Source of the DNA: Cornus controversa | Lineage: Eukaryota; Streptophyta; Magnoliopsida; Cornales; Cornaceae | DNA: 64,000 bases | Assembly (NCBI GenBank): GCA_026545225.1 | Contig: CM048853.1 | Location: 18,373,255 to 18,437,254 of the forward strand | Reading direction: 5' to 3' | Part shown: one piece after another, positions 3,039 to 60,786 of the stretch | How the letters are laid out: each line of letters opens with the position of its first letter | How positions within the stretch are numbered: position 1 is the stretch's first letter | The notes under the pieces: model-generated | Seen by the model: only the letters and a program-made list of their open reading frames with translations | Told to the model about the DNA's origin: nothing | Databases searched by the model: none | Position numbers and translations under genes: made by a program

Positions 3039-3158
3039 AGTTTTGATGTCTTCCGCTTTATAGTCTATGACCCGATCAACTCCCAAATCTCTCAAAAGCT
3101 TAGCCTTTTCACCACCACCACAAGTTGCAACCACTTTATTTCCAGCTAACTTTGCAAG
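3039..3158 (-). CDS. NQR: NQR-like visible exon 12 (MDR Rossmann second half)
   Basis: The exon has 40 codons, acceptor AAGTGCAG and donor GTATGT. It encodes [20 protein letters not shown], then [20 protein letters not shown]. This directly continues the preceding AVQ across a 5383-base intron and is typical of the MDR Rossmann fold ([25 protein letters not shown]). The following exon, expected to begin with a short basic stretch and continue to the GGxMFDxCLNALA-type region, is not present in 1-3038. Confidence 0.93.
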
Positions 3159-6100
3159 CTGCACTTACCACGGTTCAAATTAGAAGAGTCGTCATCATAA
3201 TGAGAAAGATTTGCAAAAAGAAAAAAAAAAAAAAAAGAGATAAAAGAAGTTAATGTTCAATCAATCATGACATGATTTTATGAATAACACATGGAAAGAG
3301 AAATCTTAGGGGAGTAATATTCGACCCAGAACCTGGCCCCATCCTCCTGATGGTGCCAGCTAGCTCACTTGTATTGTCTTCCTGTGGCTACCTGAGACCT
3401 GCGCTAGAATTTTGCCTCTGTGACGTATTTGTAGACCTCTGGTCATGGGGAGAGCTAAACCCCATCATGTAGCCCACTGTTCCCTTTGGACCAGAAATAA
3501 AAAATAAAAATAAAAATAAAAATAGATGAAACTACCATCAGCAGGATTGCCCGGGCAAACAATGTGCAATTTTGTTACAAGCACATTAGATATTGCTTAT
3601 TTGCAATCTCTGTATATAAGAAGAAACTATAGTTTGTTTCCACTTTCAACTTCAACAATAGTAAAATACAATGATTCTAATTAGCCAGCGAATGACTTAC
3701 ATGCCATCTTTTTTTTCTCTTTTTTCCTATATGCTTACCACCAAGTTAAGATATAGCCAACTTGAACAGGATTTACTTTGACTACAACCATTTGGTGGAA
3801 GAACAGGATCAATAGCCATCTTGTTGATAAAATAAAATAAATTGAAGAGAGAAATTAAACAAGAAGAACAGAAGAATATAACGTGGTTCGGCCACTACAG
3901 CCTACATCCACGGCACACAAAGCCCAAAGGGTGGCTACATTACTTTTATTGTATTCTCTCTTAGTTTTGTTTACAATGACCACCTCTATTTATGTAAGGA
4001 CCGGATTATTTTTGACCGGTTCCGGATTATTTTTGGACCGGATTTCTTTTTCCGAATTAATTAATTTCAGAAGGATGTGAGAATATATATATATAAATGG
4101 AATTATATATATATATATAGATGGAGAAAGTATATGTATATGAGATTATATAATATGGATGGACGATGCACATATATATATATATATAGTAGATATATTT
4201 ATATTTAATTATAAATATATATATAGATACATGTATATTATTAAACATGTATGTGGAGGAGTATGTGGGTATATACGGTATTGTATAATGTATATGTATG
4301 TAAGTGTTTAACTATACACATGTGGTGATATATATATATATATATATACATATTATATGTATGTATGTGAACATGTGGAGGAGAATGACTAATGGGACAT
4401 GTCGTGTGAGAGAAAAGAAAGAAAGAAGGGTTCAAAATGAAAAGAAGAGAAAAGCAGACCAATGTGGTCGGCTGGGAGAGGAGAAAAAGAAAGAAAAGAA
4501 AAAGAGAAGAAGAAAGAGAGAGAAAGAAGAGAAACCGAGAAGGAGGAAGGTGGTGTCCAACGGTGGGGACTTGGCTGAGTCTTCTCACATGGGTTCTGTT
4601 CGGGACAGTGGTGGCGGACCGTGGCTGGGCTGTGAGATGGTGTGTTTTACGGCGGCAATGATGGTTGAGCTTGGAGGATCGGTTTGAGGCAGCCAGTGGT
4701 GATCATGGCTGGGTGAGGTTTAAGACCATGGTGGTTCGACCATGGCAGTTCTGATCGGCTGACGGTCTGGTGGTAGTTGGCCATGGAAGATGACCGGAGT
4801 AGTGGCTGGTTTGTGTTCGAACTAGGCTCCCTATGGTTCGGTTTTGGTGCTGGGTTTTCACGGTTGAAGTGAGGGTTGAGGGTGGTGGTGAATTGGTTGT
4901 TTGGTACTCCGGTGAAACTTGGGCAGCGAGGTGCTTGTCAATGGTGGTACCGAGATGGTTGAACTCGGTTGAAGTGGTTTTGGGTTCCATGGTTTTGAAT
5001 GGGGGTTATTTCCCATGGTGACCATGGGAGCTTGGACTTTTGGCAGTGGGCTTTGAGATTAAGATTGGTAGTTCACGGTTGGGTCTTTGCGGCAGTGGCG
5101 GTTTTGATTGGCAGCAAGGATGGTGGCTTCAATATGAATGGTGTTTGGTTTGGACTTGAACAGTGGACCGAAATAATAAATTGGGTTTACTTTTTCTTGA
5201 CCCAATTGGAGATTTAATTCGGATCAATTAATTGGGCTGGTTTAATTGGCTTGAAGATGGGTTGGACTTGAGACTTGAATTTAAATTCAGCTTCCCATAG
5301 ACTTTGGATATGCGTGGCCGTGTAACACAATTCCGGCAAAACAGTGGATGACGATCTTTTCAACTTTCTCGAAATTGGAGATTTTTGGAGTTCTCACTCA
5401 AATTGAGGTAGGGGTGTGAAGTTTTTCTTTGCTTTAATTCTATAGGTCCTTTAACTATGACATGAAGGATAGATTCAAGATTTCGTGAGATTAGGGTTTG
5501 GTGTATATGTTTATATATTTATGAAAATGTGATTTATGCATATGTATATGTCTAACATGTTAGTTAGGGCTTATATATGTTGCATATGTGAAATTGAGAC
5601 GTTGAATGTAGTTTGTTGAAATTGTGTTCATTTGATGAAAATATGACTTTCTTAAAAAATGCATAAGCACGATGATTTTCATGAGATGAGTGGAATGACA
5701 TTGTGACAAGCTTGAGTTGAGAAAGAAAATGCATTGCATTGTGTGGGATATGTGCATTTATGTGATAATGTGCACTATGTGAAAAGCGAGTTTTTGGGGC
5801 ATCACAACATGAGAATTAAGATAAGGGCATGGATCCCTAGGGTAAAAGACCCAAAACTTGGCCAAGTGGATGGCGCTTCCATCGCGTTAGTAGCCCGAAA
5901 AGCGTAACCAGAGTTTGGGTGCCGAAGAGACCCTTACTATTGGTGTGATAAGCTAGTCTCCATTGAATTGCTTTCCGGATTTATGTGGCGTGAGTTTATA
6001 TATGAACTATAATTTGTTCAACTTGATATATATGTATATATATATTGAAATGTAAAGCATCACACATGATTTCTAAAACTTGATTGTTTTGAAGGTAAAA

Positions 6101-9100
6101 CATATGGATATTTGTCATGTAGACATGTAGTGATTTTATATGCATTCATGCATGGCTGCCTGAATTAGAGTAGAGTTGGGTGGATCATTCCTACTGAGCC
6201 GTCGTGGTGCTCACTCCCTTTTCCCAAACTCTTTTACAGATAAAGCAACCATGGAGGATGAGGCTTAGAGAGCTAGAGTGGTTTGAAAGGACATTTTAGA
6301 GTTTCTGTTGGATATAGTATTTATGAATTGTGTATTTGGCTATCCATGCCAGTAATTATGTGGCATGTGGATTATATTGATGTGAGACTACAATTACAAT
6401 TATGTTAGTTAATTTCTCCAGTTGTAATTATACATGTGATATTATCTATTTGAGATGGACATTCAGGGTTTGATTGTTTAAATTGAGGAATATGATTTTT
6501 CTTAGAATGTAACAAGGAAGTTGGATTGTAATGATTTTTATAACTAGATTGTGGAGTGACAACCCAGTCACCCTCGATTTTCGGGACTCGGGAATTGGAG
6601 CGTGACAATTTATAGGAGAAAGAATACACGTGATAAATATGAAAAATATATTAATGGAAGATTCCTAAAATCAATCCCTTAAATCATCTTCTATCAAGGC
6701 TTAAATCACTCCAATAATATATTCTCTAACACCCCCCCTAAGTTGGTACACGGAGATTTTAGCTTAAGTGTCCAACTTGAAACTAAATATGAAGTTTTAG
6801 GGGATCCGAGTCGAGTTGATCTGGAGATCCGAGACGAGTTGATCCGAAGATCCAAGACGAGTTGATCCTGAAATCTGAGACGAGTTGATTCGGAGATCTG
6901 AGGCGAGTTGATCCGAAGATCCGAAATGAATCTATACCATGTTGATAAAATAAAATAAAATTGAAGAGAGAAATTAAATAAGAAGAACAGAAGAATATAA
7001 CATGGTTCGGCCACTACGGCTTACATCCACGGCAAACAAAGCCCAAAGCGTTACATCACTTTTATTGTATTTTCTCTTAGTTTTGTTTACAATGACCACC
7101 TCTATTTATAGGTGAAAGAATACAAGTGATAAATATAAAAAATACATTAATGGAAGATTCCTAAAATCAATCCCTTAAATCATCTTCTATCAAGGCTTAA
7201 ATCACTCCAATAATATATTCTCCAACACATCTCATTATCAGATACTAGATCGAATTATGTTATGATACAGAGCAACACTTTGGTGTCTCATTGTGTGATC
7301 TCAACAGGCAAGTGCATAAATGATTCATCAATGCGAGAATTTTAAGAAATATATTACCCGAGGAATTGATCTCTATGCTAGTGAGTTCAAAATTCTTAAG
7401 GTATTCCAAGATTTAACCATGATGAAATGACATATTGGTCAAACAAGAACAACAGGGTGTCTCGTTGTGTATATTCAGTGGTCCGTGACTAGTTGTTTCA
7501 TGCTTTGGTCGGAGTATGGGAGTGTTTAATCCTGTCCTTGTGGCTTTGAAAGCGAGCCACTCCGATTTATTGGAGCCCGGAGCTCATGGAAATTTATTAA
7601 ATTTAATCAAGATGATTGATTAACTAACTGATTTATTAAGATTAAGGAAGATGTAACTTGAGTGGAAACCACATAAAGTTAACCGAGATGGATAACTAAT
7701 TAATGATTTGAGATTGAGGAAACGGTTATATGGGGAAACTGTTTGAATTTTGAAATCTAATATAAGAATTAATGAGATATTAATTATTATATGAGACTGG
7801 TTATGATAATGAATGATATATAAATTATTTAGTATTGAGGTGAATATATGATAATTTTTGAGATAATAGTTATTATATGGATTGAGGCTGAGTAAAATTG
7901 TGTAGTTTTCTTCTATTGTGGTTGGAAAGAAATATAATAATCAATTAGATATTAATTATTATATGAAATCGGCGGTGATCATATATGAAACTTGATTAAA
8001 TAACTTGAGATAAGTTAAGCATGATTAATGTACCTTTTACAATTTGCTTTTATATATGGAAGTATAAGATAAGATCAATTTGCTGAGCAATGATTGTGTT
8101 GAGCAGTTTTCTTGTTGGGCTTGTGAGCGTCTATATCTTTTCAGGTACTCATGGATTGACATGTGATAGAGAGACACTTGATGGACTAGAGCTCTATTCT
8201 GGAGATTGTTTCTTTGAGTGAGTGAGTTAGTTTTATTTGAGCGGCTTTTGTAGTGAGGATAACCGTGCGATGAATATTACTTATATTTGTTTGGTTTATG
8301 TCAGTGTATATTGTGGACATGATTTATTGGATTTATGATGTTAATTGATGGTATAATTATTTAGATTTATTTTGAGTGGTTATTGATATTGGAATTGAGC
8401 TGGGCACCAAGTTTATGTACTTGGACTAGATGTTCCACTGTTTAAATAGGGGGCGTGACATCTTACATATTTGGCAGTACATAACAAATTAGCAATCAGA
8501 AACTACCATAACAAGGTTCTACTAATATTTGGAAAATAAACCTGGACTGCAAACTGTCCAGTCCCTCCTGCAGCAGCAGTGACGAGAACTACTTCTCCAG
8601 AAACCATTTGTGCTGCCTACAAGTTCCCAAAAAACCACGTCATCAATCAACTGCTGTCTGATTGACACAGAAATTACCACAACTGACAATATCTCGAACA
8701 AGTCTGAAAAAAAAAATGAAGTAATAAACCTTTTCTAAAGCAATTGATGCGGTAAGTCCAGATGTAAGCATGGCAACAACTTCAGGATCTGGTCTGGCAA
8801 CAGGAAGTATGTGCTTTGAGGTAACCTAAATTATACAAAAGCCAAAAGTGATAAATTTAATTGTCAAATTAATTACGATTAACAAGAAAATGAATATGGT
8901 GAACAAGGAAAATTAAAGGACAAAGCAAACTTCGCAAAAGACAAGAACTAGTAATTTTATATAAAGTGTACCATCATGAATTCAGCATAACTTCCAAAAG
9001 TCATGAGTGCAACAGGAGTTCCAACTTTCAAGTTATCAACAGAACTGCCCACCGCAGCAATAATTCCAACAGCCTACAATATAAGGAGATTGATTTAATG

Positions 9101-9705
9101 GCCAGAAAAGGAAAACAAAAAACAAAACAAAAAATTCTATCAGCGGAAGGACAGAAACACTTGTTAAGAAACATAAATTCTGTCAAGGATCCTCAGGGTT
9201 CCATTTACATGGTAGGAGGCTTGAGGCAATGTCTTTCTATCAGAATGATACTTATTTAATATTTCCAGGATGTTACTAGGAACATCAATGTCTTGCACTG
9301 CCTTTGACACACTGAAATTTTGTCTATTTCTGCATCAGGACTTCAGAGCAGTTATGATGTTTGAGCAAGTAATGAATGTCGGTGTTAAGAGAGTGGGGCA
9401 TATTAATCCCCTTCACAACGTTTGCATCGATAATCAAATATAATTCCTACAAAACCATTGTTTAATTTTAGAATTACAGAAAAATTGTTTAAGTTCTCTC
9501 ACATTAAGTGATACCAGTATTTTGGCTTTGAATAACACTAGCACACAGGAATCACCAACACGCCCAAACATCTAGGGTCTATGTCAACAACATTAACAAA
9601 TTTATATGAAAAAGAGCATTCAGAAAGGCTGACAGCATAGTGAATTCCAACAGTAATACTACCCTGAGAAAGAAAATTAAGATTCTCCAGAACAAGGAAA
9701 TACGC

Positions 9706-9782
<77 letters not shown>

Positions 9783-51700: not shown

Positions 51701-54700
51701 GCACACACCAAATAAAATTAAGAACACAATATTTTAAGAGATAAATTGAGATAAGGATTTGAGAATTCCAGGATCCCCTTCATTCACCTTTTAAAGATAT
51801 TACTCCTAATTTAATGGTAACTTTTTCAATAGATTTTCCTCAAAGCAATACAAGGGAAGATAGGTCAGTAGTTTGACTAAAATTATGATCATAGACAGAG
51901 CAGAATAGCGAGGTAAGACTAGTGCATCAGATCCAAAAAAGTTGGGATAATACTTTGTTGAGTTGAATTAAGTGCAACTTGAGTAGATGCCATTTTAATG
52001 AAACACTGGTAAAAATGCCATTACCCAGTGTTGGCTTGCCAAGTAGGATGCCAGGAGACTGGATTCAACCCAAATCTAAACTTCATGTTATTTGCATAAA
52101 GTGCTTACTCAGACTTCAAACCAGTTATAACACTTAGTAAATCAAGTTTTTACCATTGCACCAAGCAATGGCCCCTAAATTGAAGATGAACTATGAAAAC
52201 CATATCAATATTGTTCTGTATAAAGAATAATAGAGTTAGGCAGATAAGAAGCTTTGAGAGAGAGAGAGAAAGGCAATTAGGGTTTTCCTTGTTCTAGGGT
52301 TTCTTAGGTGGGGAAGACGAAGGCTTTTCAGCATGGAGGGGGGATCAAACCTTCTCCACACAACTACTGGCGGTTACTGTTGGCCAGCCAGTGTCTCCTC
52401 TACGTATGTCATGGAGAAAACTCTAACAGTGCTAAAAAGAATTCGTTTGTTAATCTAACTACTCATGAAGGTACTCGGAAGGATTCTATGATCACCATTA
52501 TGGATGAAGATGTTGCTGATGAAGTTAGTTATTGGGAGAAATCCATATTGGGATATGTTATGGGGAAGAAGCCGTATTTCCCATTTTCTGAAAAGTTTGT
52601 CAAGCGCAAATGGGGAGAGAGTTTGAAGGTGGTGTCATTGCATGATGGCTTTTTTATGGTGCGATTTGATAAAAAGGAAAGGATGGAGACTGTGTTACAA
52701 AGGATGCATACATTTGAAGGTCGTCCGATCATTGTCAAGAAATGGGAGAAAACTGTGAATCTTGGACGAGATATCTTGGGTTCTATCCCTATCTGGCTCA
52801 AGGTAAATGGTCTGCCCATACATTGTCAATGTAAGGTTATTTTGTCAAAGATTTGTTCTCTTTTTTTGAAGCCTTTGTTTCTTGATGATTCTTTGTCAAG
52901 GGAACTTGCACAGTATGTAAGGGTTGTGGTGGAGGTTAAAGTGCATGAGATACTCCCGGAGAAGTTAACTATCCTTGTTCATGGAAAGGAATGTGGGATT
53001 ACATTTGAGTATGAGTGGAAGCCGCAGGTGTGCTCACACTGTAAGTGCATGGATCATCTGGTTGTTCAATGTCCTTTGAAGTTTCCTGAATCCAAAAAAC
53101 AGAAGAGTCAAGGAGTATGGATTGTAAAGAGAAAAGGGAAGGAGGTTATGCATGGTGATCTTGAGAGGGCTAGTGCACACACACCTGTTGTTAATCAAGA
53201 TGTTCAACATGATGAGGTGCTTCCCATATCAGAAAACCCATTTAACGTTCTCCAATTGGGTGGTGATTCTGAGGAAGCTTTTAATCAAGATGGTGTAGGA
53301 ACTCATAGTGGAGATGCACTGGATCCTGTTTCAGAGTCCCATGTTGTAAATGAGGACGGTGTTTTGCCTGAAGATGGGGTGTTTGATGAAATTTCCAAAC
53401 AGGTTGTTCCTTCTGTGAATTCTGCTGGGGTTACTTCTAGCCCACGTTTTTCTACTTTGCCTTCCAAGAAGGCTTCTGATGCTTTCGTGGATGGTAAGGA
53501 GAAGTTGGTTTGGTGGACAATGTGCACATAAGGAATTATAAATCTGGAAAGAAGGGTAACAAAGCTAAGCAAACAGCTGTGATTACTGAGAGAGTTACTA
53601 GAAGCAAGGTGGGGTCCATCCCTCAGAATTTAAATCAGTCCTCATGATCTGTTGCTGGAATGTGAGGGGCTTGAATAAGCCTAGAAGGCAGAGGTAAAGC
53701 TTTGGTTAGACTCTAATTGTGCTCAGTTTGTGTGTTTGGTGGAGACTAGGGTTAGAAGTTGTTCTTTTGATCGTATTACAAGTAGAATTAGGAGAAATTG
53801 GAGGTGGTTAAATAATTATTTATAACTCTCATGAGTTGGGTAGGATTTGGGTGGGATGGAACCCTTTGTTTTTTACAGTGGATATGCTGCATGAAGGTGA
53901 CCAAAGTATGCTGTTGAAGGTCAGTTCTGAGCAGAGTGATGAAATTTTCTACTGCTCACCTGTGTATGCTTCTAATTTAGCCACTGAAAGCAAGAGATTG
54001 TGGGACGTTATCATTAATTATTCCACTTTGGTGGCAGGACCTTGGATGACTATGGGAGACTGGAATTCTGTCAGATTTCATGGTGATAAAAGATGTGGTG
54101 AGAGAGTTCCTCAAGCTGTTTTGGATATTTTCAATGATATACTCCAGAATGCAGGCCTTTTGGAGTTATCTATTTCTAATGGTAGCTGGACTTGGTCAAT
54201 AGACAGGGTATTAGCAGGAGAATTTTTTCCAAGCTGGATAGGGTCTTTGTTAATGTTGATTGGTTGTCTCAAATGCATGGGACTAAGGCATATCTAACCG
54301 CTGCTAATTGCTCAGACCATCATGGTTTGGTGATCAGTGTGGCCAGGAATTTTACAAGTGAGACCAAGCCTTTTAAGATGCTTAAGGTTTGGTGCTTACA
54401 GCAAGGGGTCTTTTCTATTGTGCAGGAAGCTTGGAAGTAGGTTGATTGGAGTCCTCTTCACAGACTGCAGAAGAAGCTCAGGAATGTGAAAGCTGCTATC
54501 AAGAGCTGGAATAAAAATTATTTTGGACATGTTGGAGAAAAAGTTATTAAAGCTAGGCAAAATTTGGAAACTATTCAAATGAGTGTGCTTAGTGACTCTT
54601 CCAATGAGTTATTTGAGGAAGAAAAGGAAGCTAGAGAATATCTGGAGGCTGATTTGACTGACCAGGAGGTGTTGTTTGCTCAGAAGTCAAGAGTGACATG

Positions 54701-57700
54701 GCTTAAAGATCGTGACAGATGTACTTCATTTTTTCATCAAAAGATGCAGCAGCACAGGAATTTCAATGCCATTACTATTCTGGAAGATTGCAATGGGCAG
54801 AGATCTTCTGATCCTAGCATTATTAAGGAGTGGATCATTGATTATTATCAACAGCTGTTTGCTATGAGGAGTGCTGTTCACAATGATTTGCTTCAACCTA
54901 GAAGGAGTCTTTCTTTGGATGATGATGTTCTCCTTGAGGGTGAGATCACGTATGATGAAATTAAAGGAGTGGTGATGGCTTTTATCCCTGATAAGGCCCC
55001 TGTGCCTGATGGTTTTCATCTAGATTTTTTCAAACTTACCAGACAATCATTGACAGGGACTTGGTGAGGGCAGTCCAGCACTTTTTCTCTCATTCTTCTC
55101 TTCCAACTGGAGTAGCGCTTTGATTACTTTGATACCCAAGAAGAATAATGCAGTAAAGGTCAGTGAGTTTAGGCCTATTTCTTTGTATAATTTTGTATAT
55201 AAAAAATCACACAGATTATGGCAAACAGGCTTTGTACTGTTTTATCAAATCTGGTTGGGAATGAGTAGTGTGCTTTCATTCAGGGTAGGAGGGTGCAGGA
55301 TGCTATGATTATAGCTCATGAGTTGGTCAAGGATATCAACTGCAGTAAGCATTCAACTTTAGTTTTGAAAATTGATTTAATGAAGGCTTATGATTCAGTT
55401 TCATGGGACTTTTTGTTGAAGCTGCTTAATTTGTATGGGTTTGGGAGCAAGTGGATTGGCAGGGTTTCTGCTTGTTTAAGTTCTACTAGATACTCTGTGT
55501 TGATCAATGGTTCTCCAAATTGTTTCTTTCAACCGAGTAGAGGGCTTAGGCAAGGCTGTCCTTTGTCTCCTATGCTCTTTACTTTGGTGACTCAGTATTT
55601 CTCAAGTTTGTTGGACAGAGAAGTGAATAATGGTGCACTTCAAGTGTCTAATTCAGCTAGAAAGGTTAACTCTTCTCTTTGTCATATTTTCTTTGCTGAT
55701 GATTTGATGATGGTTTGTAAGGCTTCCATATCAAATGCTTCAGCAATTTCAAGACTGCTTCAATAGATTGAGTTTCAGACTGGTTTTGAAGTGAATAAAG
55801 AGAAGAGTTGTGTTTTCTTTTCTAAAGCTGTGAAGACGAAGAGAGGAATTATGACAATTCTGCAATGTAGGAGGGATAAGTTGCCTTTGAAACATCTTGG
55901 TTTGCCTTTGTGTAGTCATGCTTTAAAGAAGGCCAATTGCAAGGATCTGTTGGATAAAATTTCAAACAAAATTTCTGTTTGGAGTAATAAACTTCTGTTT
56001 CTTGCAGGTAAGTTGGATCTTTTGAGAGCTGTTGTCACTCCTGTTATTTATTTCTGGTGTAATGTTTTCAATATTCCAGTTGCTGTGATAAATCAAATTC
56101 AGAAGATGTGCAGAGACTTCCTTTGGGGCAGTACAGATGATGCAAAGAAGCTTCATTTGTTGAATTGGAATCAGGTTACAAAAACTAATGCTGAAGGAGG
56201 TTTTGGTATTAGGAGGATCTCAGATATACAAGTTGCTGCTAAATGTGCTCGTCTGGGATTTTCTTCTCAGTAAGGACAGATTACGGGTTCCATGGTTCAA
56301 AAAATAAATATGAATCTGTAACCACTTATTGGGCTGCTATTCCACCTTCTACTCATTCAGTTATTTGGAAGGCTATGTTGGCAGTTAGGGACACTGTAAT
56401 GGCTAATTTTTCTTACCATACTGGAAATGGTCAGTCTATCCTGCTATTCCTAGATCCCTGGTGTAATGGTCAAACCTTATATCAAAGGTTTGGTCATAGA
56501 GTTATCAGGATGCTGCCATTGGGTAGAGATGCTCAGATGCAGAGATTGATTTTAAATGGTAGTTGGAATTGGGATTTGTTGCAGAATTATGATTTTCAGC
56601 AGTTGAGGGAATTTCTTTCTTCTGCTACTGTCCATGGTGGGGAGGATAAATGTCTATGGAATGGAGGGAATTTTACTTTTAAAAGAGCTTGGCAAAGTTG
56701 CAGATCTATTTATGAAGAGGTGTTCTTGTATAAATTATGCTGGAATAAAGGTAGACCTAGATGTTCGGTTACTTCTGCTCTGGCTATGCTGGATAAGCTT
56801 CCTTCTAATGTTAACTTACTTGGTGCTGCCTCCTTTTTGTTCTGACTGTTGGCATGATCTGAATTCTAGGAGGCAGCATATTTGCTTCTCTTGTCCATTT
56901 GCTAAGGGTGTTTGGTTGTGGCTAAATGAGGTTCTTCATTGGGATATGCCTTCTTTTGAGGGTGAAGGGACTGATCAATTCTTTCTTTTCAGCAAGTGGT
57001 TCTGGGATAAATTCCATTTCTTCAAGATCTGCAAGATGATCTTTTCTGCAGCAATGTGGGGTATTTGGCAAGAGAGGAATACCAGGTTGCATGTTGGCTC
57101 TATGAGATCTGCTTATGTGTTAGCAAGGACTATTTTGTTTGATGTTTTTTATGCAGCCTCCACTACTATTGAAATTTATGTTTTTTCTTTGTTTGGAAGC
57201 CTTGTTGGCTTTTTATTGAGGGCTAAGAAGCATGGACACGGATACGGGACACGGGTACGACACGACACGGACACGGCGACACGACAAATTTCAAAAAAAC
57301 AGGACACGACACGGCGGGGATACGACTATGAAATAATATATTAATATATATTCAACAAGTTAACCAATATCCACAATATCATAAATTTAACAATAAAAAA
57401 ATAATAAATCACACAAATACTTCAATTTATTATCAAGTAATTAATGTATTTTCAAAAAGGATGTTCATTATATTGGCTTTTTTATTTTTTTTGTTTCTAA
57501 ATTTATTATTTAGGAATTTTATCTAACTATTTTTTATTTTTAAAATTTTTTATTTTAGAAAATACTATATTTATATAGAAAAGGGCATAATAGTCATATT
57601 AAATAATATATGTCATTATAGTTATTTCAAGGGGTCAATATGTCAATTTTTAGAAGATGAGGGGCTGAAATGCTAAAAAAAATAATTCAAATGGGTCTTT

Positions 57701-59468
57701 TTGTAACTTTGCAAAAGTTCAGGGGTTTTTTTGCACTTCTAAAAATTACAAAATGTACCCCGCCGTGTCCCCCGCGTGTCCTTGCCGTGTCCCCCACGTG
57801 TCCTTGCCGTGTCCCAGCCGTGTCCTAAAAAAAAAAATTCCAGGACACTTCTACGGAGTGTCCGACACGTGTCCGAGGAGTGTCCGAGTGTCCGACATGG
57901 ACACGGCACCCCTATACGAAGTGTCCGTGCTTTCTAGATTGAGGGTATTCCCTCTATTTCATGTACTCTATTGCTTTATTTTTAATGAAACTCCAGCACA
58001 ATTTATGAAGAAAAAAAAAACCATATCAATATTGATTTTCAAGCATACCGCAAGGCGAGTGCCGTCAATAACTGCCATGAGGTTCACATTAATAGTGTGT
58101 CTCCATGAACCAGAACCATCAGTTTGATCCTTATAGAATGGCACAGGATTTGAAATGCCGGCACTGTTTATACAAATATCCAGCCCTCCATAAGTGGCCA
58201 AATGCTTTTTAAACGCAGCAGTTAGTTCTCCTGTTCATAGAAGAAAGAATAACCCACCAATTATAATCAATCAACTAATTAGAATTAGAGTCTCCATATG
58301 AAAAGTGTAGTGTATGATGACGATGTAAATTATATATCATGCAAAACGTATACTATGCAATTATATATATGTATACAACCCTTTTTTAAATTTATGAACT
58401 ACAGCAATAAAGTTGGTGTCAAACTCCTAGATCTTCTAGAACTGAACAAATATATATTACACAAAAATACAAAATCCTTTATGATATCCATGAACAGGAA
58501 CAATAATGCTGGTGTCAAATTCCTTGATTGAACCTCATGTAAAATTAATGAGCTCCAAAGCAGGATTAGACTTCTTATATTAGTATATTAGCAATTATTG
58601 ACCATTGCAAAACTTTTTCACGGTCATGATGTTAATATCATAAAGATCTTAATAAATTTTAATCACTTGGTAGTATTGATAACTGAATAAGACACCACAA
58701 AAGTAAAACAATAATGTGAGTCTATCATATGCCTAGAATGTTTCCAACTATATATCACCTTTCAGTTCCTTGAATCTACAAAAACGAACAAGAACAAGAA
58801 TAGTTGAAAAATTAATGCAAATGAAACAATCCATATAGAAATCAGCAGTTACAATTAATAAATTAAATGCAGAGATTCCAACATGATAATTTAAACAGAT
58901 ATTTTAGTCACAAGTGATTCAACACCAAAAGACTAGAAGTCACACAAGCATTTGGGTGTATCATGACCTCAAATGTGTCAATTGTGGGCATCATCCCAAA
59001 AAAAAAGGCATAGAGATATTCCAAGTCTTCTGGTTTATTATGAACTTGGTATTGGTGCTAAGCATATATAAAAAATAAAAAATTGATAGGAAACTTCATT
59101 AGAATCATTATTTATTGTAGGCACATTAATGGAGTCCTTTAACAAATTGGCTATATTCAGTATAAATAGAATTAGTTACAACACTATCTGAAGTCCATTA
59201 TAGAAAGCAGCTGATAAGAATTACTCTCTGGTCAAGAAACCAGGAGCAGCTGATAATAATTACTCTCTAGTCATGAAACCAGGAGTTTACTTACTTGTAT
59301 TAGTTACATCACATCTTATAAACATAGTGGATGGGAATTTCAACACTGGATGGAACTTGGCATTCTCTTTTTCAACGAGGGATTTAACTTCCCTTCCATT
59401 CTCTTCGGAGAAATCGACAATCGTAACAAATATTCCCTTCTCAGCAAGAGCCATACAAAGAGCTTTAC
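3039..59468 (-). CDS. NQR: SDR-MDR fusion oxidoreductase (NQR-like), 12 internal exons across 56 kb
   Basis: Twelve exons join in matching phase (1,0,1,0,1,2,0,0,0,0,0,0 at their 3' ends) into 471 codons without a stop; all introns are GT-AG. The N-terminal part is a classical SDR: CDV motif, NSAG in place of NNAG, NVNL, a serine in MGSAS and the YxxSK catalytic pair. The C-terminal part is a quinone-oxidoreductase-type MDR: GroES-like fold with GFE where zinc alcohol dehydrogenases have GHE, then the nucleotide-binding motif [12 protein letters not shown]. From recall, domain order and sequence match Arabidopsis NQR (AT1G49670, about 630 residues), a predicted oxidoreductase linked to quinone or reactive-carbonyl chemistry; the substrate is not established by this sequence. 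The Asp ending beta-2 in the SDR half (TIVDFS) suggests NAD(H). Exon 1 lies beyond 64000 and the C-terminal exons before base 1. Visible introns run from 113 bases to 13955 bases. Confidence 0.9.
3310..3527 (+). repeat. Possible retroposon with (AAAAAT)n tail
   Basis: A GC-richer block of about 190 bases ends in GGACCAGAAATAAAA and four to five AAAAAT-type units at 3488-3525. A 3' simple-repeat tail on an otherwise non-repetitive block is typical of SINE-like retroposons. No box A/B pair or TSD was established. Confidence 0.3.
3822..7227 (-). mobile_element. TRIM element 1, minus strand, with nested insertion
   Basis: This is a terminal-repeat retrotransposon in miniature with no coding capacity. 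The 5' LTR is 6940-7227 (288 bases), the internal region 6732-6939 (208 bases; PBS-like site at its right end, poly-purine tract CCCCCCC on the plus strand at its left end). The 3' LTR is 3822-3992 plus 6613-6731. The TSD is CATCT at 3817-3821 and 7228-7232. The 3' LTR is split by the element at 3993-6607. It lies in the 5.4-kb intron before visible exon 12. Confidence 0.85.
3993..6607 (+). mobile_element. Long solo-LTR-like element (family I) nested in TRIM 1
   Basis: This 2615-base insertion begins TGTAAGGACC and ends GAGCGTGACA. It is flanked by the 5-bp duplication ATTTA (3988-3992 and 6608-6612) and cleanly interrupts the TRIM LTR. No PBS, gag or pol was seen, so it is probably a solo long LTR of a gypsy-type element, but a non-coding element cannot be excluded. 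It shares blocks (GAGGTAGGGGTGT; a segment near 5840-5920) with 31364-35650 and 18752-21900. An alternating TA-rich stretch at 4081-4360 can form hairpins. Orientation is shown as TG to CA on the plus strand and is not independently established. Confidence 0.7.
7440..8460 (+). repeat. LTR-like repeat, family II copy 1
   Basis: The sequence shares blocks with 22800-23707, for example GGGAGTGTTTAATCCT at 7518 against a one-base variant at 23046, and both end in GGGGGC[G/A]TGACA (8449-8460 and 23696-23707). The CA terminus suggests the end of an LTR. No open frame or start boundary was found. It ends 81 bases from visible exon 11. The stretch 7233-7439 to its left is unassigned intron. Confidence 0.5.
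8542..8616 (-). CDS. NQR: NQR-like visible exon 11 (MDR nucleotide-binding motif)
   Basis: The exon has 25 codons, acceptor CTTGTAG and donor GTTTAT. It encodes [20 protein letters not shown] followed by [17 protein letters not shown] is the AAxGGxGxxAxQ dinucleotide-binding loop of the quinone-oxidoreductase MDR branch. The LTR-like element ending at 8460 lies 81 bases beyond its 3' end. Confidence 0.93.
8730..8825 (-). CDS. NQR: NQR-like visible exon 10 (MDR hinge)
   Basis: The exon has 32 codons, acceptor ATTTAG and donor GTTTAT. It encodes [20 protein letters not shown], then [12 protein letters not shown]. The [13 protein letters not shown] helix leads into the Rossmann domain of quinone oxidoreductases. 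A 146-base intron separates it from the previous exon and 113 bases from the next; these are the smallest introns seen and probably reflect the ancestral gene size. Confidence 0.9.
8972..9073 (-). CDS. NQR: NQR-like visible exon 9 (MDR core)
   Basis: The exon has 34 codons, acceptor TTGTAG and donor GTACAC. It encodes [18 protein letters not shown] followed by [16 protein letters not shown]. The pattern GxVxAVGxxVxxxxVGxxV and FGSYAEF is typical of the MDR catalytic domain. Both ends are in phase 0. Confidence 0.9.
9074..10072. other. Intron between visible exons 8 and 9 with TA/GA microsatellite
   Basis: This 999-base intron holds a compound microsatellite at about 9712-9780, (TA)n followed by (GA)n. 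I see nothing else recognisable in it. Confidence 0.7.
10073..10153 (-). CDS. NQR: NQR-like visible exon 8 (MDR substrate pocket)
   Basis: The exon is exactly 27 codons, acceptor GGACAG and donor GTGCGG. It encodes [16 protein letters not shown] and then HLPFDAGFE. In zinc alcohol dehydrogenases the GFE position reads GHE and binds zinc; its replacement by Phe fits the zinc-free quinone-reductase branch. Both ends are in phase 0. Confidence 0.9.
10154..11430. other. Intron between visible exons 7 and 8, nothing recognised
   Basis: This 1277-base AT-rich intron has an A/G-rich tract at 10376-10400 and no element or exon I can support. Confidence 0.6.
11431..11557 (-). CDS. NQR: NQR-like visible exon 7 (MDR GroES-like start)
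   Basis: The exon has 127 bases, acceptor TTCTAG and donor GTGAGT. It encodes [20 protein letters not shown], then [22 protein letters not shown]. The [14 protein letters not shown] stretch is the hallmark early GroES-like strand of quinone-oxidoreductase MDRs. The upstream intron is 12230 bases and contains copia A, Cassandra and the tandem TRIM array; from here on the exons are closely spaced. Confidence 0.92.
11558..12385. other. Intron sequence 5' of copia A, nothing recognised
   Basis: AT-rich intron sequence between visible exon 7 and the target-site duplication of copia A. No coding or repeat structure was found. Confidence 0.6.
12391..12627 (+). repeat. 5' LTR of copia A
   Basis: The LTR has 237 bases, starting TGATGACATA and ending ATCTTCA. 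It contains about two and a half copies of a 52-57 base unit built around GACATATATAGATAATTAGC and TAGCATAGTTATAGGAC. The 3' LTR has about four and a half copies. Confidence 0.9.
12780..14149 (+). pseudogene. Copia A gag and protease, broken
   Basis: Gag begins near 12798 ([19 protein letters not shown], a typical copia gag start), is frameshifted near 13010, has stops near 13208, and resumes in 13235-13480 and 13487-14149. The zinc knuckle [14 protein letters not shown] (CX2CX4HX4C) is intact. The protease motif reads [11 protein letters not shown]: the catalytic D-S-G triplet has become D-I-G, which should impair the protease. Confidence 0.85.
14150..15399 (+). pseudogene. Copia A integrase, broken
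   Basis: The GAG-pre-integrase zinc-binding part ([19 protein letters not shown]) and the first catalytic Asp ([11 protein letters not shown]) are readable in 14415-14843. Later parts are in shifted frames: [15 protein letters not shown] sequence near 14820-14860, then [13 protein letters not shown] and [17 protein letters not shown] within 14897-15271. Several frameshifts separate the segments. Confidence 0.8.
15740..17269 (+). pseudogene. Copia A reverse transcriptase and RNase H
   Basis: The N-terminal RT ([18 protein letters not shown], [17 protein letters not shown]) between 15740 and 16290 holds several stops. From 16304 to 17269 a clean 321-codon frame follows: YVDD is immediately upstream and in frame, then [40 protein letters not shown], and [13 protein letters not shown]. 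The three main RNase H acidic positions appear present. Only this C-terminal third could be translated. Confidence 0.88.
17251..17608 (+). repeat. 3' LTR of copia A, expanded by tandem repeats
   Basis: The LTR has 358 bases, TGTTGACATA to AAATCTCA, 121 bases longer than its partner. The extra length is two more copies of the 52-57 base unit starting GTTGACATATATAG. The remaining 3' portion matches the 5' LTR closely (CTCAAGGAGAAGAATACACA, then CTCCAGAGAAATCT). Confidence 0.9.
17614..18167. other. Intron sequence between copia A and Cassandra, nothing recognised
   Basis: No coding or repeat features were found in this AT-rich stretch. Confidence 0.5.
18347..18420 (+). repeat. 5S rRNA-derived segment in Cassandra LTR1
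   Basis: The segment reads ACCCATCAGAACTTCGCAAT, TAAGCATGCTT, then GTAGTACCAGGATGAGTGA and CCCGGGAAGTCTC. It parallels the 5S rRNA internal control region (A box, intermediate element, C box) with several substitutions. It is part of the LTR, not a functional 5S gene. Confidence 0.85.
18550..18751 (+). repeat. Cassandra LTR2, truncated within its 5S segment
   Basis: TGTGACTACCTCTGTGGGCG starts the second LTR. It ends at CGCAGTTAAGCATGCT, where LTR1 continues with the C box. TGTAGAGACCTGG, the start of another LTR-like element, follows at once, so an insertion split this LTR. The lost part was not found downstream. Confidence 0.8.
18752..21900 (+). mobile_element. Family I LTR-like element, truncated, hosting a TRIM array
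   Basis: It starts TGTAGAGACCTGG inside Cassandra LTR2, is interrupted at 19689-20948 by the TRIM array, and resumes at 20954. It shares with 3993-6607 and 31364-35650 the GAGGTAGGGGTGT block (19444-19456) and a block near 21215-21300. No coding sequence was seen. The right end is not defined and may have been overwritten by the family II repeat. Confidence 0.55.
19689..20948 (+). mobile_element. Tandem TRIM array: LTR-internal-LTR-internal-LTR
   Basis: Three LTRs (19689-19989, 20200-20497, 20670-20948) alternate with two internal regions (19990-20199 and 20498-20669). Each LTR runs TGTTGGAGAA to TTATCAACA. The internals begin with a PBS (TGCTATCAAAG in the first, TGGTATCAGAG in the second) and end in a purine tract (GAGGGGAGG; a run of about 14 G). 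The 1260-base block is flanked once by the TSD GTTGA (19684-19688 and 20949-20953), so it behaves as one insertion unit. It is the same family as the minus-strand TRIMs at 3822 and 30767. Confidence 0.9.
21930..23707 (+). repeat. LTR-like repeat, family II copy 2
   Basis: It ends GGGGGCATGACA at 23707 and shares several blocks with 7440-8460. A segment at 21948-21998 (GAGGTTTAACAGGGCTGATG, then TATAAGAATTAAGGTTGCA) recurs at 22191-22240, which may mark a start or a local duplication. No open frame or PBS was found. It ends 80 bases from visible exon 6. Confidence 0.5.
23788..23974 (-). CDS. NQR: NQR-like visible exon 6 (end of SDR, linker to MDR)
   Basis: The exon has 187 bases, acceptor TTTTTTCAG and donor GTGAGT. 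It encodes [20 protein letters not shown], then [18 protein letters not shown], and ends in [19 protein letters not shown] is the C-terminal strand and helix of the SDR fold; the following charged stretch is the linker that joins it to the MDR domain, and PESFEKL is where the MDR begins. This single exon therefore carries the fusion point. It ends in phase 2, with the Leu codon completed by the first base of the next exon. Confidence 0.9.
23975..24399. other. Intron 5' of visible exon 6, nothing recognised
   Basis: AT-rich intron sequence without supported features, up to the TSD of copia D. Confidence 0.5.
24405..24621 (-). repeat. 3' LTR of copia D
   Basis: On the minus strand it starts TGCTAGCCGAGATATC; the partner LTR starts TGTTAGCCGAGATATG. 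The two are clearly related over their length with scattered differences, in keeping with an old insertion. Confidence 0.85.
24897..26050 (-). pseudogene. Copia D reverse transcriptase and RNase H remnants
   Basis: The clearest stretch is 25054-25320: [38 protein letters not shown] and [18 protein letters not shown]. It is followed by an RNase H remnant near 24900-24990 (RAMAL-like, SRSVLTR). RT fragments further upstream are in different frames ([18 protein letters not shown] at about 26000 belongs to the integrase end). There are many stops and frameshifts. Confidence 0.8.
26275..26604 (-). pseudogene. Copia D integrase remnant
   Basis: Minus-strand frames give [20 protein letters not shown], then [20 protein letters not shown] and [18 protein letters not shown]. 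This includes the first catalytic Asp. [20 protein letters not shown] in the next frame contains the second. The frame is lost between the two. Confidence 0.82.
26605..27416. mobile_element. TIR element copy 1 in copia D, right end degraded
   Basis: The left end CTAAGAAGCATGGAAACGG matches the left terminus of the element at 57223, followed by CGGATACGGGATACGGATA-type subterminal repeats. Towards the right are GTGTCC/CGTGTC repeats up to about 27416, but no matching right terminus or 8-bp duplication was found. It interrupts the copia D integrase region. The interior holds A/G-rich sequence with no transposase. Confidence 0.6.
27549..27991 (-). pseudogene. Copia D protease and pre-integrase remnant
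   Basis: Minus-strand frames give [14 protein letters not shown] (protease; the usual DSGAS/T reads DSGVS), a frameshift, then [33 protein letters not shown] and [13 protein letters not shown]. These are the standard copia segments between protease and integrase. Confidence 0.8.
27992..29340 (-). pseudogene. Copia D gag remnant
   Basis: The minus-strand region between the PBS and the protease. A short frame at 28810-29007 begins [20 protein letters not shown]. Further fragments include a zinc-knuckle-like region near 28130-28200 ([18 protein letters not shown] when frames are followed). Heavily broken. Confidence 0.6.
29354..29559 (-). repeat. 5' LTR of copia D
   Basis: The LTR has 206 bases on the minus strand, starts TGTTAGCCGAGATATG and ends next to the PBS at 29353. 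It is related to the LTR of the copia E fragment at 60531. Confidence 0.85.
29565..30375. other. Intron between copia D and visible exon 5, nothing recognised
   Basis: AT-rich intron sequence; A/G-rich segments near 29980-30100 have no supported function. Confidence 0.5.
30376..30463 (-). CDS. NQR: NQR-like visible exon 5 (SDR substrate-loop region)
   Basis: The exon has 88 bases, acceptor CCTGCAG and donor GTACAT. It encodes [20 protein letters not shown] and then [10 protein letters not shown], the variable SDR segment after the CPE motif. It enters in phase 0 and leaves in phase 1. It is the most isolated exon: 13955 bases of intron lie upstream and 6401 bases downstream, both full of retroelements. 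Its assignment rests on phase, splice sites and resemblance to the family at this position. Confidence 0.85.
32803..33329 (-). repeat. Solo-LTR-like insertion with GTGGTTCGGC motif
   Basis: The block starts TGTTGAGAAATAAGC and ends CTTTGTCATCA on the plus strand; read on the minus strand it has TG...CA ends. It contains ACGTGGTTCGGC followed by GCCTACGTTCACGG, a motif shared with the TRIM LTRs here. It interrupts the family I element. A clear TSD was not found, so the boundaries are approximate. Confidence 0.5.
33812..35177 (+). mobile_element. Solo LTR (SIRE-like) with internal minisatellite
   Basis: The 1366-base insertion starts TGTTGACCC and ends TTGGGTAACA, with exact TSD GTTGT (33807-33811 and 35178-35182). 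The 5' part has TTTTGATGATAACAAA, seen in SIRE/Maximus copia LTRs, and near the 3' end CACCCCCCCTCTAGGG. No PBS or coding region was seen, so it is most likely a solo LTR left by LTR-LTR recombination. It is nested in 31364-35650, which is nested in TRIM 2. Confidence 0.75.
34270..34512 (+). repeat. Degenerate minisatellite of TTTGAGCCACCTCAAA units
   Basis: About a dozen imperfect units of GAGCCACCTCAAA and GAGGCGCCTCAAA alternate over 240 bases inside the solo LTR. The core TTTGAGGCGCCTCAAA is a perfect palindrome, so each unit can form a short hairpin. Confidence 0.8.
36060..36690 (-). pseudogene. Copia C, left part (gag end and protease), split by copia B
   Basis: On the minus strand the sequence encodes [16 protein letters not shown] near 36170-36110, a protease motif with D-L-G for D-S-G. 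A degraded zinc knuckle lies upstream near 36390-36340, and gag sequence such as [18 protein letters not shown] from 36685. It continues across copia B at 41890-42240. Confidence 0.75.
36696..36907 (+). repeat. 5' LTR of copia B
   Basis: It starts TGTTAGAGAG and ends CAACTTCAACT next to the PBS. It includes a (TTC)n run at 36842-36866. The end defined by TSD and PBS is CT rather than the usual CA. Confidence 0.88.
36908..36922 (+). promoter_or_regulatory. Primer-binding site of copia B
   Basis: TGGTATCAGAGCTCG directly follows the 5' LTR and is complementary to the 3' end of plant initiator tRNA-Met, the standard copia minus-strand primer. Confidence 0.9.
37542..40583 (+). CDS. Copia B gag-pol, first 1013 codons to a premature stop
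   Basis: Domains in order. Gag starts [21 protein letters not shown] Gly/Arg-rich stretch at about residues 224-256 precedes the zinc knuckle [14 protein letters not shown] (260-273). The protease motif [11 protein letters not shown] has its Asp at 323. Integrase has Asp 508 (HTDIWGPSR) and Asp 571 (RSDN), but position 607, the expected third acidic residue 35 residues on, is Lys (GVAKRK). Reverse transcriptase follows with [14 protein letters not shown]. The frame ends at TAG 40581-40583 inside LYGLK*SPRAWF, where the family has Gln. The RT palm and RNase H follow in the same frame after the stop. Confidence 0.93.
40584..41212 (+). pseudogene. Copia B RT palm and start of RNase H after the stop codon
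   Basis: The region continues in the same frame: [42 protein letters not shown] (YVDD catalytic pair), [20 protein letters not shown], and [20 protein letters not shown]. At FSDADW (about 41198-41212) the frame shifts because one base is missing from the codon run for ADWAG. Confidence 0.92.
41207..41662 (+). pseudogene. Copia B RNase H after the single-base deletion
   Basis: This frame continues the RNase [61 protein letters not shown] and CHFIRDLL. The C-terminus LYAPA with TGA is the usual copia pol end. The single-base deletion at about 41212 separates it from the RT frame. Confidence 0.92.
41670..41884 (+). repeat. 3' LTR of copia B
   Basis: The LTR has 215 bases, TGTTAGAGAG to TTCAACT. 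By eye it differs from the 5' LTR by a handful of substitutions and three bases in the (TTC)n run, indicating a recent insertion. Confidence 0.9.
41890..42245 (-). pseudogene. Copia C, gag start, right part
   Basis: The minus-strand frame from 42240 gives [40 protein letters not shown] and [11 protein letters not shown], a typical copia gag N-terminus. It is broken from its continuation at 36690 by copia B. The stretch 42246-42560 is probably its 5' leader and has a degenerate direct repeat (CGAGATGYTGCRATTAGGG). Confidence 0.8.
42246..43639. other. Intron and copia C leader, no gene recognised
   Basis: No coding exon or defined element was found apart from the possible copia C leader at its left. 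The 5' LTR of copia C was not identified. Confidence 0.45.
43640..44285 (+). repeat. Three degenerate tandem copies of a 220-250 base unit
   Basis: The phrases TTAATTTTAGCCTTTTTC, TTAATTTTAGTCTTTTCC and TTAGTTTCAGCATTCTC occur at about 43689, 43911 and 44157. Each is followed by ATGTGGACCATxTCACTCTTC-like and CACATGACTAA-like sequence. No coding frame runs through the units. The array ends about 130 bases before visible exon 4. Confidence 0.65.
44419..44495 (-). CDS. NQR: NQR-like visible exon 4 (SDR alpha-F and CPE motif)
   Basis: The exon has 77 bases, acceptor TTCTTAG and donor GTAAAT. It encodes [20 protein letters not shown] followed by NVLCPE. This is the helix after YxxSK and the strand ending at the position where most SDRs have PG; here it is PE. 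The entry phase 1 joins the G left by the previous exon, and the exon ends in phase 0. Confidence 0.92.
44702..44807 (-). CDS. NQR: NQR-like visible exon 3 (SDR catalytic Ser and YxxSK)
   Basis: The exon has 106 bases, acceptor GGCAG and donor GTTTGC. It encodes [20 protein letters not shown] followed by [16 protein letters not shown]. The serine in MGSAS and the Tyr and Lys of YTASK are the SDR catalytic residues and are all present. It is separated from the previous exon by a 13.2-kb intron holding a Tat-like gypsy and a LINE, and from the next by 206 bases. The 3' end is in phase 1. Confidence 0.92.
44808..45611. other. Intron between gypsy element and visible exon 3, nothing recognised
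   Basis: No exon or repeat was supported. Confidence 0.5.
45612..46021 (-). repeat. 3' LTR of the Tat-like gypsy element
   Basis: The LTR has 410 bases with ends TGTAGGGAAAAA to GTACTTACA on the minus strand, next to a purine tract (plus-strand CATTGCCCCCAATT). Its inner part matches 51655-51792 closely: AAATTCTTAGC-like start, GCACACACC, and GAGATAAATTGAGAT. Confidence 0.8.
46280..48267 (+). pseudogene. Antisense ORF region of the gypsy element, interrupted
   Basis: Plus-strand frames, opposite to gag-pol, give [20 protein letters not shown], then [13 protein letters not shown] (46480-46620). Next are [18 protein letters not shown] and [20 protein letters not shown] (46818-47150), a Lys/Ser-rich stretch (47220-47340), and [20 protein letters not shown] (47920-48267). 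The pieces look like exons or frameshifted parts of one long protein resembling the antisense ORF products of Tat-lineage elements. Function is unknown. Stops at 47152, 47345 and elsewhere break it. Confidence 0.55.
48733..49165 (+). repeat. Tandem repeat array in the gypsy element
   Basis: About ten imperfect copies of GCGATCGGTCGTTCAAGACC followed by TTAGCTTCGATAA. Some units are extended by GATTGGGCCTGTGGCCTCTT, giving alternating short (about 35 bases) and long (about 90 bases) periods. The array lies where pol has been truncated. Confidence 0.85.
49230..49667 (-). pseudogene. Gypsy reverse transcriptase start, truncated
   Basis: The minus-strand sequence reads [40 protein letters not shown], then after a stop [29 protein letters not shown] and [17 protein letters not shown]. 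This is the N-terminal RT of Tat-like gypsy elements. It ends at [17 protein letters not shown] sequence, where the catalytic YxDD part should follow but is absent. Confidence 0.85.
50132..50755 (-). pseudogene. Gypsy gag C-terminus and protease region
   Basis: The minus-strand frame of 207 codons contains [20 protein letters not shown] (a zinc-knuckle remnant in which the first cysteines are changed), [16 protein letters not shown] and [19 protein letters not shown]. This is the typical linker leading into the protease of Tat-like elements. [20 protein letters not shown] marks the start of the protease. Confidence 0.8.
50807..51586 (-). pseudogene. Gypsy gag N-terminus, broken
   Basis: From 51586 the minus strand gives [20 protein letters not shown] followed by a Gln-rich segment ([20 protein letters not shown]). 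At 50992-50807 [20 protein letters not shown] belongs to the retrotransposon gag domain. Frameshifts separate them. Confidence 0.78.
51655..51792 (-). repeat. 5' LTR remnant of the gypsy element
   Basis: The remnant matches the inner 140 bases of the 3' LTR and is followed inward by CTTTGGCACCTTCTGTGGG on the minus strand, which resembles the primer-binding region of Tat-like elements. The outer part of the LTR is missing, so the original right boundary and TSD are lost. Confidence 0.75.
52308..53531 (+). CDS. LINE ORF1 (DUF4283-like nucleic-acid-binding protein)
   Basis: A 407-codon open frame. Residues 70-230 carry the plant LINE ORF1 domain ([49 protein letters not shown]). A zinc knuckle [14 protein letters not shown] follows at 242-255. 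The C-terminal third is acidic and low in motifs. ORF1 proteins bind the element RNA in the ribonucleoprotein. The start could be the Met at 52308 or a later Met near 52491 ([18 protein letters not shown]). The frame ends at 53531, perhaps early. Confidence 0.85.
   Translation: MGKTKAFQHGGGIKPSPHNYWRLLLASQCLLYVCHGENSNSAKKNSFVNLTTHEGTRKDSMITIMDEDVADEVSYWEKSILGYVMGKKPYFPFSEKFVKRKWGESLKVVSLHDGFFMVRFDKKERMETVLQRMHTFEGRPIIVKKWEKTVNLGRDILGSIPIWLKVNGLPIHCQCKVILSKICSLFLKPLFLDDSLSRELAQYVRVVVEVKVHEILPEKLTILVHGKECGITFEYEWKPQVCSHCKCMDHLVVQCPLKFPESKKQKSQGVWIVKRKGKEVMHGDLERASAHTPVVNQDVQHDEVLPISENPFNVLQLGGDSEEAFNQDGVGTHSGDALDPVSESHVVNEDGVLPEDGVFDEISKQVVPSVNSAGVTSSPRFSTLPSKKASDAFVDGKEKLVWWTMCT
53644..54440 (+). 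pseudogene. LINE ORF2 endonuclease domain, frameshifted
   Basis: ORF2 starts [16 protein letters not shown] at 53644, the usual APE-type endonuclease N-terminus, but is frameshifted within 20 codons. The open stretch 53836-54297 carries [18 protein letters not shown] (the GDWN/GDFN motif) and [13 protein letters not shown]. The next frame has [11 protein letters not shown] and CSDHHGLVI (the SDH motif). Confidence 0.85.
54486..56273 (+). pseudogene. LINE ORF2 reverse transcriptase domain, broken
   Basis: Open stretches carry [58 protein letters not shown] (first catalytic Asp), [17 protein letters not shown] and [14 protein letters not shown] (the FADD motif). A thumb-like region follows to 56273 ([21 protein letters not shown]). 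Frames change near 55070, 55290 and 55780. Confidence 0.9.
56300..57214 (+). pseudogene. LINE ORF2 C-terminal zf-RVT-like region, broken
   Basis: The region contains [36 protein letters not shown] and [20 protein letters not shown], the C/H-rich zf-RVT pattern typical of plant L1 ORF2 C-termini. Frames switch near 56845. Confidence 0.82.
57223..57937. mobile_element. 715-bp TIR element copy 2 in the LINE, 8-bp TSD
   Basis: Ends are CTAAGAAGCATGGACACGG on the left and, reverse complemented, CTAGAAAGCACGGACACTTC on the right. The TSD is ATTGAGGG (57215-57222 and 57938-57945). Subterminal arrays of GACACGG/CGTGTCC flank an AT-rich core with no coding capacity. An 8-bp TSD points to a non-autonomous hAT-type element; the superfamily is an inference. 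A related copy lies at 26605-27416. Confidence 0.8.
58049..58230 (-). CDS. NQR: NQR-like visible exon 2 (SDR NNAG-region)
   Basis: The 182-base exon begins after AACAG and ends before GTATGC. It encodes [18 protein letters not shown], then CINSAGIS and [23 protein letters not shown] is the NNAG strand motif with the second Asn replaced by Ser. The Asn in NVNL corresponds to the fourth residue of the SDR catalytic tetrad. It starts in phase 1, continuing the arginine codon begun in the previous exon, and ends in phase 0. A LINE target-site duplication ends only 12 bases past its donor. Confidence 0.9.
58231..59294. other. Intron between visible exons 1 and 2, nothing recognised
   Basis: This 1064-base AT-rich intron shows no element. 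A short imperfect repeat (GGTGTCAAACTCCT at 58415, GGTGTCAAATTCCT at 58511) is the only structure. Confidence 0.6.
59295..59468 (-). CDS. NQR: NQR-like visible exon 1 (SDR cofactor-binding part)
   Basis: This 174-base exon encodes the SDR segment [19 protein letters not shown] and ends near FIRCDVTN. The acceptor is ATGTAG at 59470-59469 and the donor is GTAAGT. It starts in phase 1: its first two bases complete a glycine codon, so the preceding exon should end in the GIG of TGxxxGIG. The Asp closing beta-2 is the usual NAD-preference residue of classical SDRs, and CDV is the adenine-pocket motif. No preceding exon was found up to 64000, so intron 1 is at least 4.5 kb. Confidence 0.9.
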
Positions 59469-60530
59469 CTACATGTGAACCACAACACCACACACAAATT
59501 ATATAAAATGTAACATCCACCAGATATTCACAAAATTGGAACACAAAAATATGCAATACATCTCCTTTAGTAAAGTCATATAAAGTCCACAACATCTAAG
59601 TCCTTCATACATATACCAAGAAGTTTGGAAAACAATGGAAATTAATTAGTCCACAAAAAAGAGTTATTTATGTAAAGTCATATGTATTAAGAGATTTGGC
59701 AAATGCTCTAACAAGGGAGACTCTAATGTTTAAACAAAACGTCTAAATATGTCCATGTTATTCAACTTGCCAAGGAACATCAAGATACAAGTGAAGACTA
59801 CTGACTGAAGATGGAACTACAAGAAGAATCTCAAAAGGTCACTTCATAGAAAACTTTCGTTCAACTAGTGATCTGTATTGTGAACATAAAATTTTACGGA
59901 GAAAACCATTGTGTTTGATCAATCATTCTACCAAGTCAAACTTATCCTTCAAGATCAAGGAGGGTGGAGCATACAATCACTTGTGAAGAAGGAAGATCAT
60001 TTAGGAAACGATTGCATTGAGTCATTGACACAACAGCAGATCATCTTACAGATTCAAGTGTAAGACTGAGATGTCCACAACAACTGGGCTCGTTGGTGGC
60101 AAATGATAACAAGGCATTAGACTAACGCAATTAGTAACTGGGTTTTGACAAGTTTTTGTTTGGAGCAAAGAATAGTATGATTTTACGAAGACGTTGGCAT
60201 CACATGTCATGTTCTTTACATGGTTTAAAATATGCTACGAGAATAAATAAATTTCTTATTTTTCCATAAGACATAAATGTTTTCGCTAAAAATACAACCA
60301 CATGGCTTTTTGGTACTTACAAGATTGTAGAGTCAGTACATCCCCCTTTTACAAAAATCAGATTTCAAGTAAATTAAAGGAGGGGTCACTACTTGAAGAT
60401 TATATGAAGTGATTCTACCCTTTAAATGTATTCAGGTTTGGAATACTTTACAAGGGAAGGACACACTATGGGTTGCTTGGTTTGAAAAGAAACATGCTTC
60501 TATTACCAACTATTAAAACTGCATTAATTG
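59469..60530. other. Intron 5' of visible exon 1, nothing recognised
   Basis: No TGxxxGIG-coding exon was found here or to the right. No repeat was identified. Confidence 0.5.
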
Positions 60531-60786
60531 AGAAGAAATATAGGAGAAATATGTAAAGGTTAGAATGAGATAATTCGCTCAATCACAGATTTGGTATTTA
60601 TACATTAAATGAGCACATGTTAAATTTTACAGGAAAGGAAACCAAATAAAATTATTGCAATTCTTTGCCTTAATATATGGGTAAATAAAGTCAAATCTCA
60701 CAATTCTTGGCTAACATATCAAATCCCATGATTCTAGGCTAACATATCAAATCCCATAATTCTAAGCTAACATATCTCTGCTAACA
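60531..60786 (-). repeat. 3' LTR of copia E with triplicated 28-base unit
   Basis: The LTR is related to those of copia D. Between 60691 and 60776 the unit CAAATCCCATGATTCTAGGC plus TAACATAT occurs three times; copia D has it once. Confidence 0.75.

Follow-up and report, generated by a model that had tools for sequence, protein, structure and literature searches.

Apparent constraint on a plant NQR-type gene whose exons are dispersed among transposon-bearing introns

Very long, transposon-rich introns are described in Cornus officinalis, in which 13,567 introns exceed 12 kb (11.7% of all introns) and the mean intron is given as 3.8 kb; for C. wilsoniana and C. controversa the mean is about 1.1 kb (PMC12860560). 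The same report describes Gypsy elements as enriched in the elongated introns and associates longer first introns with higher average expression. In grapevine, ESTs are reported to support 2,697 introns with lengths of 3-100 kb (PMC3058033). Intronic heterochromatin is described in over 10% of rice genes, in the context of OsIBM2 (PMC7145194), and introns of up to 1.49 Mb are reported from the Wollemi pine (PMC10473749). As for the expression of such genes, the accounts of grapevine (PMC3058033) and rice (PMC7145194) point to lower levels, unlike that of C. officinalis (PMC12860560). Here we describe a gene whose long introns hold transposons and whose coding exons are intact. It lies in a stretch of 64,000 nucleotides, which we call the window.

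The Arabidopsis member of the plant SDR-MDR fusion is AT1G49670, which we take to go by the name NQR. The Arabidopsis gene is presumably compact. A plant SDR inventory includes AT1G49670, in an entry with neither an SDR number nor a function (PMC3541173).

The exons of the window gene were first located from minus-strand reading frames, and their edges were then set with homologous proteins. This gave 12 minus-strand exons, from 59468 down to 3039, with a total of 1415 bases:

59295..59468, minus strand, visible exon 1, SDR domain
58049..58230, minus strand, visible exon 2, SDR domain
44702..44807, minus strand, visible exon 3, carries the SDR catalytic Ser, Tyr and Lys
44419..44495, minus strand, visible exon 4, SDR domain
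30376..30463, minus strand, visible exon 5
23788..23974, minus strand, visible exon 6, linker joining both domains
11431..11557, minus strand, visible exon 7, ADH_N begins
10073..10153, minus strand, visible exon 8
8972..9073, minus strand, visible exon 9
8730..8825, minus strand, visible exon 10
8542..8616, minus strand, visible exon 11
3039..3158, minus strand, visible exon 12, ADH_zinc_N, domain cut by the window

The visible exons make up just 2.5% of their span (1415/56430 bases). The 11 complete introns are, in gene order, 1064, 13241, 206, 13955, 6401, 12230, 1277, 999, 146, 113 and 5383 bases long, and the five long ones are these:

44808..58048, minus strand, intron of 13241 bases
30464..44418, minus strand, intron of 13955 bases
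23975..30375, minus strand, intron of 6401 bases
11558..23787, minus strand, intron of 12230 bases
3159..8541, minus strand, intron of 5383 bases

The initial annotation had proposed this same chain of 12 exons, which is exact to the base, and the same five long introns, whose lengths are also exact. It had put the neighbouring introns at 113-206 bases, which fits those of 113, 146 and 206 bases but not those of 999, 1064 and 1277 bases. It had also held that frame and phase are kept throughout. Indeed, each of the 12 exons has AG in front of it and GT behind it, which makes 24 of 24 edges AG/GT with both outermost ones counted; every junction is in phase, and the 471 codons contain neither a stop nor a frameshift.

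A 420-residue draft of the product had as its best match a 633-residue protein from Cornus florida (P0001). Residues 20-490 of P0001 pair with the 471-residue product in a gap-free alignment (471/471), at 92.6% identity (436/471), and the product is 88.3% identical to a protein from Davidia. With P0001 as the tblastn query, all 12 exons were matched, collinearly and on the minus strand, at E values from 7e-33 to 7e-10, and the next best match in the window had E = 0.66. The 12 collinear matches and the gap-free alignment exclude chance as the source of the exon chain. E. coli QorA and FabG were too distant to serve as tblastn probes: QorA matched two exons, at E = 0.23 and 3.6, and FabG matched none.

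The product matches the Pfam families adh_short, ADH_N and ADH_zinc_N, in that order and each above its curated cut-off; ADH_zinc_N is matched at positions 1-46 of 129 only, as the window end cuts the domain. The best solved structure for the first half (residues 2-207) is 15-hydroxyprostaglandin dehydrogenase (E = 1.1e-29), and for the second half (residues 255-470) it is prostaglandin reductase 3 (ZADH2; E = 1.6e-44). Homologues carry names such as "like AT1G49670" (P0072), "ARP protein (REF)" (P0068 and P0116) and "prostaglandin reductase-3". Judged by these matches, the gene is of the plant NQR type, as the initial annotation had it: a fusion of a short-chain dehydrogenase with a quinone-oxidoreductase/PTGR3-like domain. 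The product keeps Ser136, Tyr149 and Lys153, which we take to be the SDR catalytic residues and which are present in 115 of 115 homologues. It has NSAG in place of NNAG; this is the commonest form here, with Ser in 75 of the 115.

The initial annotation had a single gene crossing nearly the whole window, with further exons off both ends. An ungapped scan with windows of 19 or 20 residues, which a very short or diverged exon could escape, recognised neither the N-terminal 19 residues of P0001 in 59469-64000 nor its C-terminal 143 residues (491-633) in 1-3038. For the N-terminal piece, the best score was 21, with a self score of 93 and opposite-strand controls of up to 25. For the C-terminal pieces, the best score was 26, with self scores of 95-116 and controls of up to 21. 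For two C-terminal pieces the scores (25 and 26) were above those of the controls (15 and 14), but these matches cross in-frame stops, and a third piece (26 against 21) matched inside copia-like sequence near 983-1042. These results suggest that the gene probably continues past both ends of the window, in agreement with the claim of outlying exons, so that a gene of nearly the window's length is probably an underestimate. The outer introns would then be at least 4532 bases (upstream of visible exon 1) and at least 3038 bases (past exon 12), and the exons for the N-terminal cofactor motif and for the C-terminal 143 residues presumably lie outside.

To describe constraint on the coding sequence, we used the 120 best-ranked matches listed, out of 1856 matches among 7999 scored candidates. 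Sizeable insertions or deletions relative to the window product are present in 7 of these 120 gene models. Some lie at exon borders of the window gene: insertions that follow residue 178 (P0004 and P0038; border 179) or residue 406 (P0003; border 406), and deletions of 164-179 in P0003 (border 179) and of 251-271 in P0103 (border 270.7). The others, in P0004, P0013, P0031, P0038 and P0102, lie away from the borders. Because of these latter cases, the indels hint only faintly that intron positions are shared with the homologues.

Conserved columns were counted over 115 full-length plant homologues, after the 5 of the 120 that covered fewer than 465 of the 471 positions were dropped. The window copy deviates at none of the 107 columns that are invariant in these homologues, at 1 of 168 columns at the 98% level, and at 2 of 220 at the 95% level. 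This is unremarkable, because the median deviations over 116 sequences are 0, 1 and 3. For the C. florida copy, the columns that are invariant in its case contain 3 changes. Furthermore, in relative-rate tests with five outgroups, changes specific to the window copy numbered 10, 10, 17, 13 and 14, while those specific to C. florida numbered 16, 13, 13, 12 and 14; the largest chi-square was 1.38, and the window branch had no excess. We also ran 2000 neutral simulations for each of three settings (10, 13 or 17 residue changes). A profile as clean as that of the window copy arose with probability 0.012, 0.0005 and 0, respectively, and a stop-free outcome with probability 0.63, 0.55 and 0.45. The absence of stops is thus by itself a weak sign of function. 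With no change at the 107 invariant columns and a rate of evolution no higher than that of its C. florida counterpart, the window copy is, by these measures, a constrained gene and not a decayed relic, and the view that it has stayed under selection holds up.

The best-surviving alternative is that this is a recently silenced duplicate, whose exons are clean for want of time while another copy supplies the protein. Such a copy would look the same as a functional one, which we count against the functional-gene reading, and neutral sequences of this length are expected to stay free of stops in about one run out of two. We nevertheless consider it quite unlikely, in view of the undeviating invariant columns, the absence of a rate excess and the retention of every splice-site dinucleotide. 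A further argument comes from the age of one of the transposons. The principal elements are as follows:

36696..41884, plus strand, copia LTR element within the 13955-base intron, 96.7% identity between its LTRs, flanked on either side by GGATC
12391..17608, plus strand, older copia LTR element, decayed, within the 12230-base intron, 89.7% match between its LTRs, flanked on either side by GTAAA
about 52308..56842, plus strand, decayed LINE-like element in the 13241-base intron, with DUF4283 and RVT_1 above cut-off and zf-RVT below

All three are antisense to the gene. The LTR match of the older copia element implies that the gene has borne a long intron for some time while its exons stayed clean, which speaks against this alternative. 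Its frames are decayed, and its GTAAA duplication was found by an automatic scan for TG...CA ends. The copia element at 36696-41884 ends in CT, and the same scan gave no duplication for it; GGATC was read from its flanks. Its polyprotein frame is broken by a stop in the reverse transcriptase, and the sequence following its left LTR resembles a tRNA primer site. With two copia elements bearing 5-base duplications, the LINE and other repeats, the long introns hold transposons as first described, and no recognised element overlaps an exon, so the visible exons are indeed untouched.

An assembly artefact, in which repeat-rich sequence favoured the misplacement of a compact gene's exons among repeats, is extremely unlikely: 12 of 12 exons lie on one strand, in order and with matching phases, the two insertions with duplications on both sides each lie inside a single intron, and the window contains no N.

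The window contains other repeats. Copia-like pieces, identified by DNA similarity to the element at 36696-41884, are present at 668-964 (67.5%) and 61999-62205 (69.8%). Upstream of visible exon 1, the stretch 60533-62244, which contains the second of these pieces and so partly resembles that same element, is related to 24423-25866 inside the 6401-base intron (70.5% and 80.2% identical in two blocks); one frame of the latter and two of the former had no match in Pfam. In the frame at 27552-27884, a match to Pol_BBD falls just short of the Pfam cut-off. A family of short repeats has copies, some in one orientation and some in the other, at no fewer than five sites (3822-3993, 6608-7231, 19689-20948, 30766-31364 and 35651-35835). 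Its copies are 72-96% identical in pairs, several contain tandem 23-base units, and it is possibly a non-autonomous element. Finally, a 6.2-kb stretch (45612-51792) has a higher GC content (about 0.43-0.44), is bounded by direct repeats that are 87.8% identical, and contains an 88-base tandem array (48754-49108). Six of its frames were scanned with no match in Pfam, and the TG...CA scan found no flanking duplication.

The window has 99 stop-to-stop frames that reach 80 residues or more; our Pfam scan covered 39 of them and revealed no nested host gene among these. Apart from copia- and LINE-type families, the scan gave only matches to CYP38_PsbQ-like (E = 3.8e-4) and APD1-4_N (E = 0.0094), which were below their cut-offs and which we took as chance. 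Searches of the window with Rfam (at gathering scores) and with ARAGORN gave no hits.

We conclude, with a probability of roughly 0.92, that the window is the middle of a functional plant NQR gene whose introns have grown by transposon insertion under purifying selection on exons and splice sites. Transposons would have inserted repeatedly into introns, where the cost is small, and selection would meanwhile have preserved the exons and splice sites. A single pre-mRNA, longer than the window, is presumably made from the gene, and the ordinary spliceosome presumably removes the long introns. The sequence itself shows the exon chain, its frame, the splice-site dinucleotides, the constraint on the protein and the transposons within the introns; we infer transcription and splicing (from the constraint), copy number, and the extension beyond both ends. 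Of the five long introns, four (13241, 13955, 6401 and 12230 bases) are situated inside the SDR half or directly after it. Intron size might thus be more than tolerated: heterochromatin or polyadenylation within the introns could conceivably adjust how much of a short product with the SDR domain only is made relative to the complete enzyme with both domains, although we regard this as very doubtful.

The swelling of these introns by transposons is real, yet it is an ordinary and already reported pattern, and the gene leaves our knowledge of introns, transposons and NQR proteins unchanged. As an annotation trap it is a clear case: a conserved enzyme gene of this kind would be missed or split by gene finders that allow only short introns. 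In grapevine, 188 EST clusters are presented as illustrating genes missed or split by gene finders (PMC3058033).

Compared with plant NQR/ARP proteins (REF) of the AT1G49670 type, the window gene has the same domain order and length, with no coding differences of note. C. officinalis, as described (PMC12860560), belongs to the same genus as the source of the best protein match, and in the window gene 3 of the 11 introns that are complete are longer than 12 kb, which would fit a Cornus with a large genome. Unlike the Gypsy elements reported from that species (PMC12860560), the families found in the 39 of 99 frames scanned are of the copia and LINE types only, a mismatch that we count against our best explanation. 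Grapevine is another lineage, in which transcripts support the introns and signs of lower expression are described (PMC3058033). Rice likewise has transposon-bearing introns within genes (PMC7145194), described there as heterochromatic. By analogy, lower expression as indicated in grapevine and rice would also count against our explanation. The architecture itself, as far as these reports describe it, is of the same kind in Wollemi pine (PMC10473749), grapevine (PMC3058033) and rice (PMC7145194) as in the window gene.
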